Origin: a virus
Virus record (IMG/VR): IMGVR_UViG_3300043470_000797
Location: 1 to 31,334 of that record
Reading direction: 5' to 3' (one strand)
DNA: 31,334 bases
This document shows, in pieces, positions 19,977 to 21,542 of the stretch (position 1 is the first letter of the stretch; every line of letters starts with the position of its first letter). A model generated the notes under the pieces. That model was not told where the DNA came from. It saw only the letters and a program-made list of their open reading frames with translations, and made no database searches. Position numbers and translations under genes: made by a program.

Positions 19977-20126
19977 CTAGCGCGACTTCATGATGAAGTC
20001 CGTGAGGGCGAGGCGCATCACTTCACTGACACTGAGCCCTGTCTGTTCACCGATCTCACGCAACGCATCCCAAATGTCATCGTTGAGGCGAACACTACGG
20101 TGCGGGGTTTTGGGTTGATTCGCCAT
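19977..20126 (-). CDS. ribbon-helix-helix DNA-binding protein (49 aa)
   Basis: A 49-residue protein on the minus strand. After a short basic tail the sequence SVRLNDDIWDALREIGEQTG followed by LSVSEVMRLALTDFIMKSR is a clear Arc/CopG-type ribbon-helix-helix: one strand (RSVRLN) that enters the major groove, then two helices split by a Gly-Leu-Ser turn (TGLSVSEV). These act as dimers, usually as repressors. It is the last gene of the minus operon, with its ATG overlapping the stop of the gene before it (TAATG). It is a candidate for binding the palindromes at 21048-21107, the operon's own control region. It is the only dedicated repressor-like gene seen. Confidence 0.8.
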   Translation of the reverse strand: MANQPKTPHRSVRLNDDIWDALREIGEQTGLSVSEVMRLALTDFIMKSR

Positions 20127-20293
20127 TAGGCAATCCTACCTGCACGCCTAATAGGTGGTGTCTTTGACATCTCAACACCAAATGACTCGCCACACTTAGG
20201 GCACTGATACCACGACGACATTGTTCCCATCACCAGCTCAAAGCGGCGCGGGCGTTCACACTCACCGCACTGCGTCCTGATCGTAAACTTCAT
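20126..20293 (-). CDS. zinc ribbon protein (55 aa)
   Basis: A 55-residue basic protein with CxxC pairs CGEC (9-12 region) and CPKCG (about 31-35), forming a zinc ribbon with a TMSSWYQCPKCG hairpin. The ATG at 20293 overlaps the stop of the FmdB-like gene (ATGA) and follows GGGGAGG, so it is preferred over an upstream in-frame ATG at 20308. It is followed directly by the ribbon-helix-helix gene. Function unknown; nucleic-acid or protein contact is likely for such domains. Confidence 0.7.
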   Translation of the reverse strand: MKFTIRTQCGECERPRRFELVMGTMSSWYQCPKCGESFGVEMSKTPPIRRAGRIA

Positions 20294-20463
20294 GGCTTGC
20301 CTCCCCATCCTTCACCCTTGAACGACACACCAGGCGCCGAGTAAATACGTGTCAATGATTCCTTGCACGTGTAGCACGTTCGCTGTTCGTCACGTTGCTC
20401 AACTGGTACGCGCAAGATCGTAGTGTGTTCGCACCCACATCGATACTCATAGGTCACTGGCAT
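20290..20463 (-). CDS. FmdB-like zinc ribbon protein
   Basis: A 57-residue protein that begins MPVTYEYRCGCEHTT and ends APGVSFKGEGWGGKP, with a CYTCKESLTRIYS segment between. This is the pattern of the FmdB family (putative regulatory zinc ribbon; cellular members start MPxYEYRC and end in an FKGxGW motif). Here the first Cys pair is CGC rather than CxxC. The start at 20463 has GGAGG 5 bases upstream; an open frame to 20481 has none. Related short genes are common in phages and act as unknown regulators. Confidence 0.75.
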   Translation of the reverse strand: MPVTYEYRCGCEHTTILRVPVEQRDEQRTCYTCKESLTRIYSAPGVSFKGEGWGGKP

Positions 20464-20488: not shown

Positions 20489-20515
20489 GCCCCCTCACCG
20501 ACATGGTGAGGGGGC
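20489..20515 (-). terminator. perfect 11-bp hairpin between minus-strand genes
   Basis: The arms GCCCCCTCACC (20489-20499) and GGTGAGGGGGC (20505-20515) pair perfectly around the five-base loop GACAT. On the minus strand it follows the 78-aa gene and is followed by TTAGTGTTTG, a weak T-tract. It would stop or reduce transcription from the upstream LPD29-like and 78-aa genes before the FmdB, zinc ribbon and RHH genes. On the plus strand GTTGTTGTG follows, so it could also block read-through from the opposite direction. Confidence 0.75.
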
Positions 20516-20527
20516 GTTGTTGTGTGT

Positions 20528-20764
20528 CTAGGACTCGTCCTGAACGATCACAAGTTCACACGTATTCATCCACAGATTGAGCACATGGATTAGGTCTTTG
20601 TGCCCCTGCTCGTCACGCATCCAGTGATCAAACTGATCATGCAACGCGGTGATCAAACGTGCCACGTCGTTGCTCGTCGGGTTGTCCTCGGCGATCTGCT
20701 CGCAGTTCTCGAAGGCTTGGCGCAGGTAGGTGATGATTGCTTTGTCGCCCATGGTGGTGTTCAT
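20528..20764 (-). CDS. hypothetical helical protein (78 aa)
   Basis: A 78-residue acidic protein, predicted helical throughout (KAIITYLRQAFENCEQIAEDN, VARLITALHDQFDHWMRDE, LIHVLNLWMNTCELVI). The ATG at 20764 has AAGGAG at ideal spacing; a longer frame to 20920 would run into the upstream gene and lacks a binding site. No family is recognised. It belongs to the same transcript as the LPD29-like gene (26 bp gap) and is followed by a strong hairpin. Confidence 0.65.
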   Translation of the reverse strand: MNTTMGDKAIITYLRQAFENCEQIAEDNPTSNDVARLITALHDQFDHWMRDEQGHKDLIHVLNLWMNTCELVIVQDES

Positions 20765-20789: not shown

Positions 20790-21005
20790 TTAGGCTGATG
20801 CGATGTGGTCGAAGAATACGAAGGTGTTGTCGCTGGCGTAAGCGCTGGCGATTGGTTCAACGATTGAGCGAGTTGGGCCAGCAATCCAGGTGACATAGAT
20901 TGCGTCAAATTCGCTGCCACGGTGGGTGGTGATGCTGAAGCGTTGTGCTGGGAATGCGGTCTTCAGCTCGGTGCGGATTTGCTGGGCAGTGGCTTTGGCG
21001 GTCAT
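20790..21005 (-). CDS. LPD29-domain-like protein (71 aa)
   Basis: A 71-residue protein reading TAKATAQQIRTELKTAFPAQ then RFSITTHRGSEFDAIYVTWIAGPT and VEPIASAY. This matches the pattern of the LPD29 type (large polyvalent protein-associated domain 29): a helix with IRxELKxAFPxxxFS, a strand ending in V.W..GPT and a final helix. Those domains occur as free small proteins or fused to large phage/plasmid polyvalent proteins; their function is not known. The ATG at 21005 has AAGGAG upstream. It is the first gene of the minus-strand operon, 33 bp from the predicted -10 element. Confidence 0.65.
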   Translation of the reverse strand: MTAKATAQQIRTELKTAFPAQRFSITTHRGSEFDAIYVTWIAGPTRSIVEPIASAYASDNTFVFFDHIASA

Positions 21006-21037
21006 TGTGTGCTCCTTGTGTCTGGGCTGTTGGGATA

Positions 21038-21067
21038 AACCTAGTCTGGGTGTCCCACACCTGTCAA
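21038..21067 (-). promoter_or_regulatory. minus-strand promoter TTGACA-N18-TAGGTT
   Basis: Read on the minus strand, a perfect -35 box TTGACA (21067-21062) and a -10 box TAGGTT (21043-21038) are separated by 18 bp. Transcription should start near 21031 and run into the LPD29-like gene. The spacer is filled by a palindrome (see the operator entry), so repression is likely. Confidence 0.65.
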
Positions 21068-21107
21068 CACTTCTGCCAAATAAAGTTTCTTGAGTGTGTC
21101 GCACACC
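21048..21107. promoter_or_regulatory. two operator-like palindromes GTGTCsCACACC
   Basis: GGTGTCCCACACC (21049-21061) and GTGTGTCGCACAC (21094-21106) are both perfect inverted repeats with three central bases. The shared 12-mer GTGTC(C/G)CACACC occurs at 21050-21061 and 21096-21107, differing at one base; the two centres are 46 bp apart. One copy lies exactly between the -35 and -10 boxes of the minus promoter. The pair looks like a binding site for a dimeric repressor, possibly the RHH protein encoded at the far end of the operon. Confidence 0.6.
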
Positions 21108-21217
21108 TACAGCCCACGCCTAGTCAGGCACAGCAACAGCCCTCAGAGGGCACAGGAGGCGATCTGAGCCACTAACACGCGACACGCCGTCCATTAGGCA
21201 CACATCCCTCAGTGTCC

Positions 21218-21247
21218 TTGCACGCGGTCACAGGGTAGGTCTATGGT
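21218..21247 (+). promoter_or_regulatory. plus-strand promoter TTGCAC-N18-TATGGT
   Basis: TTGCAC (21218-21223) and TATGGT (21242-21247) are 18 bp apart, matching the spacing of the opposing promoter. Transcription would begin near 21254 and enter the plus operon that starts at 21285. The rest of the 279-bp divergent region (21006-21284) contains no gene; a short GCCCT/AGGGC palindrome lies near 21138-21150. Confidence 0.55.
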
Positions 21248-21284
21248 CAATCACGTCAGCCCAGCACAACCATCGGAGGAAACA

Positions 21285-21542
21285 ATGAGTTACATCATCC
21301 ACCCGCGGAACATCGCGGTCTCACAGCTCCTGGACGAAGGCGACGGCATCAACCAAGCCATCGTCATGATCGATCACCGCACCAATGACCCCTACATCGT
21401 GCACCTCAACGATGAGCAAGCCAGCGACCTTTACTACCAACTTCAGCGCATCCGCAACCTCAGTGTGCAGGCCGCACTCATGGACGTCAACGCTGAAGCC
21501 ATGCGCATCATTCAAGGCAACGTGTTTGGGGACTTCTCATGA
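21285..21542 (+). CDS. hypothetical protein (85 aa), first gene of replication operon
   Basis: An 85-residue protein, mixed alpha/beta: SYIIHPRNIAVSQLLDEG, then QAIVMIDHRTNDPYIVHLND and a helix EQASDLYYQLQRIRNLSVQAA. The start at 21285 has GGAGG upstream; an earlier in-frame ATG at 21243 lies on the predicted -10 element and has none. It opens a chain of coupled genes to 23920. No family is recognised; the position first after the promoter suggests an early product. Confidence 0.7.
   Translation: MSYIIHPRNIAVSQLLDEGDGINQAIVMIDHRTNDPYIVHLNDEQASDLYYQLQRIRNLSVQAALMDVNAEAMRIIQGNVFGDFS

Follow-up and report, generated by a model that had tools for sequence, protein, structure and literature searches.

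Which protein reads the palindromes that lie between two divergent operons of this phage, and which of the two promoters do they serve? The window (the whole virus record analysed here, 31,334 bp) contains a minus-strand and a plus-strand operon whose start codons, at 21005 and 21285, leave 279 bp between them. An earlier note on this DNA had placed in this gap two opposed promoters, each with an 18-bp spacer, a palindrome within the minus spacer and a variant copy 46 bp away, and had viewed them as paired operators of a genetic switch in a phage without integrase, with autoregulation by an RHH protein as the obvious hypothesis. Our analysis confirms this layout, and comparative evidence from the linkage of operator and protein, an enumeration of palindrome arms and a blind DNA search strongly supports RHH autoregulation. 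The idea of a switch was not supported: one of the two operators lies within the minus promoter and the other upstream of it, and we saw no sign of a bistable circuit. The simplest reading is negative feedback on the minus operon, and we consider autorepression by the RHH protein through the promoter-proximal palindrome to be about 85% probable.

The control region and its conservation

The minus promoter consists of a TTGACA −35 box (21062 to 21067, minus strand), an 18-bp spacer (21061 to 21044) and a TAGGTT −10 box (21038 to 21043), the latter reading TAG(G/A)TT in the window and most of the relatives compared and TAGAAA in L004 and L025-L027. The −35 box, invariant in relatives, directly abuts a candidate operator, O1, of the form GGTGT-CCC-ACACC (GGTGTCCCACACC, 21049 to 21061), which takes up the −35-proximal part of the spacer. 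A second candidate operator, O2, of the form (T/C)GTGT-CGC-ACACC with an invariant 12-mer (TGTGTCGCACACC, 21095 to 21107), starts 46 bp away and differs from O1 at two positions across the 13-mer. Between them lies the AT-rich AAATAAAG (21079 to 21086), in which AAATAAA is invariant in the relatives aligned and which may serve the minus promoter as an UP element. On the other side, the plus promoter combines a TTGCAC −35 box (21218 to 21223, plus strand; invariant in 9 phages), an 18-bp spacer and a TATGGT −10 box (21242 to 21247; TAAGGT in relatives). No operator was found at this promoter in the window, the nearest being O2, which ends 110 bp from the plus −35 box. A generic promoter scan reported neither promoter, because by E. 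coli standards both have weak −10 boxes. A promoter at O2 itself was considered and rejected: a TTG-like hexamer is present there but is unconserved and has no −10 box, and no complete promoter abutting O2 was found.

From the window alone, the palindrome pair is not more than chance. The window holds 33 perfect 5-3-5 inverted repeats where 36 are expected at random, and 44 of 200 Markov-shuffled windows contain a repeat that has a near copy no more than 60 bp away, so that base composition by itself could supply such a pair as a functionless feature. It is conservation among the relatives (8 IMG/VR contigs retrieved by a WhiB protein search, and others by an RHH protein search) that makes the promoters and operators significant. 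In the 8 contigs TTGACA, both O1 arms (GGTGT/ACACC), the 12-mer GTGTCGCACACC and the plus-strand TTGCAC...TA(T/A)GGT are invariant, the invariance of TTGACA, the O1 arms and the O2 12-mer being counted among relatives whose contigs reach the region. Across 12 related phages the centre of O1 is CCC, AAT or GGG while the arms stay constant, as would be expected for a two-fold symmetric protein reading half-sites. Both operators are intact even in L025-L027, where the 4-fold sites of neighbouring genes match those of the window at only 34-55%. Conservation at such near-saturated divergence, together with the independent recurrence of the palindrome with the RHH family described below, refutes the chance reading, unless the alignments reflect recent exchange only; we give it practically no weight.

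The distance between O1 and O2, 46 bp in the window, is 45 bp in L004 and L025-L027. As neither value corresponds to whole helical turns, looping between the two sites is not obvious. A BLAST search of the region against isolated phages gave no DNA-level match.

Other parts of the region are conserved as well. Both 5' leaders carry CAGCCCAG(A)CACA just past the expected start site (21017 to 21029 on the minus side, 21257 to 21268 on the plus side), and this element is largely conserved across all aligned relatives. The stretch from O2 to the plus promoter (21108 to 21217) is mostly conserved above the synonymous sites of neighbouring genes and contains three (A/G)GGCACA-like copies; it is possible that it harbours sites of another regulator or a replication origin. 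A structured RNA in the conserved segment 21108 to 21290 was rejected, with no match in Rfam and no covariation (term +2.52, 1 of 47 pairs).

The RHH protein family and its candidate operator

The last gene of the minus operon (19977 to 20126, minus strand) encodes the 49-aa RHH (Arc-like) protein that we propose as autorepressor. It matches PF01402 with 25.9 bits (cut-off 20.5) and phrog_6506, an Arc-like repressor family, with E=3e-9. Its AlphaFold2 model has helices at residues 16-29 and 33-48 with a pLDDT of 90, the N-terminal strand not being formed in this monomer model. In a fold search the best PDB match was the Arc-operator complex 1PAR, with a probability of 1.00, 23% identity and a weak E-value (0.0098); RHH antitoxins were returned as well. 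The protein is predicted, on the basis of this model, to have an Arc/CopG-like fold. Relatives with a near-invariant N-terminus, NQPKTP, occur in other phages and in isolated Gordonia phages, an invariance that is partly an effect of search patterns favouring that N-terminus.

In many of these phages the palindrome accompanies the RHH gene, in most cases directly against TTGACA and within the promoter spacer. Its distance upstream of the RHH start is 31 bp in L094 (GGTGTATTGCACC), 63 bp in L091 (TGTGTCGCACACC, as in O2, with GGTGTCACACACC at the next operon) and 257 bp in L102 (GGTGTAATACACC). L089 has two copies of GGTGTCGGACACC, one upstream of the RHH gene and the other at the next operon, L103 and L107 each have two upstream copies (GGTGTATTACACC and GGTGTATGACACC), and forms with a 4-bp centre, GGTGT-N4-ACACC, are found upstream in L092, L097, L101 and others. 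Among isolated Gordonia phages, Kenna and Crater contain GGTGTgggcACACC twice, and Hedwig and Ecliptus contain GGTGCcaatGCACC twice, in each case beside TTGACA; in the latter two the operator sits in both divergent promoters at a spacing of 47 bp. Some family members (L098, L099) have no recognisable operator, and a scan of genome contigs with a single protein as query yielded only two Cryobacterium loci, each with two copies of GGTGTACATACACC about 150-175 bp after the RHH start.

When all 1024 5-mers were ranked as palindrome arms upstream of 22 family members, GGTGT came out on top with 12 loci; the runner-up, GTGTA, with 5 loci, is the same site shifted by one base. Of 84 oriented instances, among which the window, L008 and L004 represent one clade, 15 have TTGACA (at least 5 of 6 positions) directly against the operator, and every other distance accounts for 0-2. 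The abutting TTGACA is mostly followed by TAnnnT 17-18 bp further on. This fixed register across lineages validates the minus promoter of the window, and the placement of the operator within the spacer is a property of the RHH family. These lineages were found by protein searches, except for L103, which first came up (as L047) with a pattern containing TTGACA.

The association also holds when the search starts from DNA. A blind scan of viral contigs with TTGACAGGTGTNNNNACACC (TTGACA-GGTGT-N4-ACACC) recovered the RHH family in 11 of 24 loci, whereas a control with permuted arms, TTGACAGTGGTNNNACCAC, recovered it in none of 25 (one-sided Fisher p about 9e-5). Seven of the 11 were new, and one, L130, is a weak match (E=4e-5). 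With a 3-bp centre the pattern led to the family in 13 of 30 loci, 12 of which belong to the clade of the window phage, the remaining one being the unrelated L047, which was likewise recovered by the DNA pattern alone. The pairing of palindrome and RHH protein recurs in many unrelated phages, in which it seems to serve as an automatic off-switch for swappable small genes. The comparison would also assign a DNA target to a family that, as far as we found, had been annotated only as 'Arc-like repressor' or 'helix-turn-helix DNA binding protein'; a limited literature search found no published work on actinophage RHH operators, or on WhiA or WhiB with GACAC.

Three further loci found by the DNA pattern (L043, L052 and L056) hold three to four copies each of GGTGTAATACACC or its reverse complement and no RHH-family protein; these copies are perhaps the sites of another regulator with a similar target. 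A second RHH paralogue (MPNQPKTQARSVRIPDELW), which has a zinc-ribbon-like tail, is encoded at 3825-4188 of L091, and the promoter of its operon likewise contains the operator.

The minus operon and its proposed feedback loop

The first gene of the minus operon (20790 to 21005, minus strand, as are all features of this operon) encodes a 71-aa protein with an LPD29 domain (PF18847, E=1e-13) and is followed by a 78-aa gene (20528 to 20764). Both belong to a swappable cassette, the downstream end of which is marked by a strong 11-bp hairpin (20489 to 20515, z=−3.8). Beyond it lie a 57-aa FmdB-like zinc-ribbon protein (20290 to 20463; PF09723 at E=6e-4, below the family cut-off, and phrog_1076 at E=2e-5), a second small zinc-ribbon-like protein of 55-60 aa (20126 to 20308) and the RHH gene. 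O1, the RHH gene and the 55-60-aa zinc-ribbon gene are retained in all 12 phages of the clade. In the same 12 phages the promoter-proximal open reading frame has been exchanged among at least 5 unrelated families, the LPD29 gene being among those replaced, and between 630 and 1955 bp separate O1 from the RHH gene. Constant operator and repressor with variable proximal genes indicate that a cassette is exchanged between the promoter and leader on one side and the hairpin on the other. L007 and L021, in which the proximal gene is missing and the leader runs straight into the conserved hairpin, look like empty cassette sites. Of 11 phages checked, 10 have the hairpin at this junction. If it terminated efficiently, synthesis of the RHH protein from the O1 promoter would be weak, as it lies between the two; its T-tract, however, is poor. 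The leader contains the motif AGACACA, which recurs immediately before this hairpin.

We propose that O1 occupies the spacer of a strong minus promoter of the sigma-A type, and that this promoter would give a burst of operon expression after infection. The RHH repressor, made from the last gene of the operon it controls, would then bind as two dimers to the half-sites GGTGT and ACACC in O1, and likewise in O2, and block RNA polymerase, so that the operon shuts itself off in a negative feedback loop. O2 would add affinity or cooperativity. It may be the remnant of a divergent promoter kept as an auxiliary site, because its spacing from O1 is close to the 47 bp that separate the two sites of Hedwig, the second of which belongs to a divergent promoter. 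The plus (replication) operon would be driven by its own promoter, not directly covered by RHH, and the genes between minus promoter and hairpin would form a small, probably early cassette for host takeover or anti-defence, with RHH acting as Aca repressors do in acr-aca operons.

An anti-defence role of the cassette, for which the architecture speaks, is conceivable, though we put the odds somewhat against it. LPD29 is the only domain hint, no other cassette gene scanned having a family match, and Pfam and PHROGs scans of the cassette genes gave no match to a known anti-CRISPR family. More tentative still is the suggestion that the NQPKTP RHH family is the RHH-based counterpart of Aca in actinobacterial phages, and that TTGACA-GGTGT-N3/4-ACACC marks an early, exchangeable anti-defence regulon. 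If this were true, a search of the DNA alone would suffice to find the regulon in phages that lack annotation. The motif also offers a handle on swappable, probably early, phage cassettes, including those of cultivated and manipulable Gordonia phages.

Alternative readings and known systems

A different view would have RHH control both divergent promoters and decide between two programmes, in a bistable switch. The divergent arrangement itself invites such a view, as do the perfect conservation of O2 and the presence of the operator in both promoters of Hedwig and Ecliptus at nearly the spacing seen here. In the window, however, the plus promoter lies far from either operator, O2 has no complete promoter beside it, and no opposing repressor was recognised. 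Tyrosine (PF00589) and serine (PF00239) integrases were likewise without a match in the window and in the records of L008, L021 and L091 (31.4, 32.9 and 30.9 kb), in line with the earlier note. We regard a bistable switch as unlikely. The palindrome could also be read by another protein, either the WhiB-like protein of the phage (21658 to 22071, plus strand; PF02467, E=1e-12) or WhiA of the host, the motif of which is GACAC. This motif does occur in O1 and O2 on the minus strand, and the WhiB gene is next door, but changes in the centre of O1 remove or invert it (GGTGTAATACACC in L008, the GGG centre in L004), and no WhiB match was obtained in L091, L096 or L102, three records in which operator and RHH are both retained. 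WhiB was rejected as the cognate factor for want of a match in several operator-bearing records, and the GACAC reading of O1 for its unconserved centre; that either protein is the reader seems very improbable.

The RHH protein might, on the other hand, be the autoregulator of a toxin-antitoxin system, since RHH antitoxins autoregulate through inverted repeats and were among the structural matches. Against this stands the protein itself, a bare RHH domain of 49 aa without a toxin-binding tail, and its neighbours, the zinc ribbons and exchangeable small genes of the minus operon, among which no toxin family was matched; we consider a toxin-antitoxin system slightly less probable even than a WhiB or WhiA reader. 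Autorepression by RHH through O1 is the reading that we retain.

The system that it resembles most in structure is Arc, the repressor of the ant promoter of phage P22, likewise a small RHH phage repressor. The Arc operator lies between the −10 and −35 boxes. Its sequence differs from the one described here and the proteins share little identity; moreover, the RHH gene closes a variable operon of an actinophage-like genome, and its product has the near-invariant N-terminal NQPK(TP). In Arc, a flexible N-terminal arm is important for binding (PMC3325190). CopG and AmrZ are RHH autorepressors with the same fold, in plasmid and chromosomal contexts and with other operators; AmrZ acts at two sites to repress its own gene (PMC3325190).

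In its layout the minus operon resembles acr-aca operons, with a strong promoter, swappable proximal small genes, a putative autorepressor as last gene and inverted repeats in the promoter region. The inverted repeats to which Aca1 and Aca2 bind overlap the −10 and −35 boxes, the aca2 promoter having two similar repeats, and the Aca proteins known in that work are all HTH proteins (PMC8434428). Here an RHH protein takes the place of the HTH protein and no cassette gene is a proven anti-CRISPR gene, so that the likeness is one of logic and not of membership. In archaeal viruses, early genes that share a regulatory sequence were argued to tend towards anti-defence (PMC11065993).

The direct relatives of the RHH protein are phrog_6506 and the NQPKTP proteins of Kenna, Crater and Hedwig. 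These Gordonia phages have an integrase, unlike the window phage, and the operators that Hedwig and Ecliptus carry in both divergent promoters are confined here to the minus side. Even the RHH protein of Hedwig, a temperate phage, is not an obvious lysogeny repressor, because a separate immunity repressor is annotated. From a lysis-lysogeny switch of the lambda CI/Cro type the window differs both in the absence of operators over the two divergent promoters and in the integrase result.

Other features of the genome bear on its completeness and host. The plus (replication) operon begins with an 85-aa gene (21285 to 21542, plus strand), whose start is set by GGAGG at 21275-21279. The WhiB-like protein and an exonuclease are encoded in the same operon, and primase/polymerase-like proteins and RusA follow at a greater distance. 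The C-terminus of the WhiB-like protein weakly resembles sigma region 4 or an HTH (E=0.016). Contig ends coincide across metagenomes, that of L021 falling at base 1 of the window and that of L008 at base 89; the terminase genes adjoin this shared end, and an HNH gene lies at the opposite one. The coincidence probably reflects a defined, cos-like genome end and suggests that the genome is nearly complete. The host is probably actinobacterial, judging from the WhiB gene, the TAnnnT boxes and the hosts of relatives (Gordonia and Cryobacterium).
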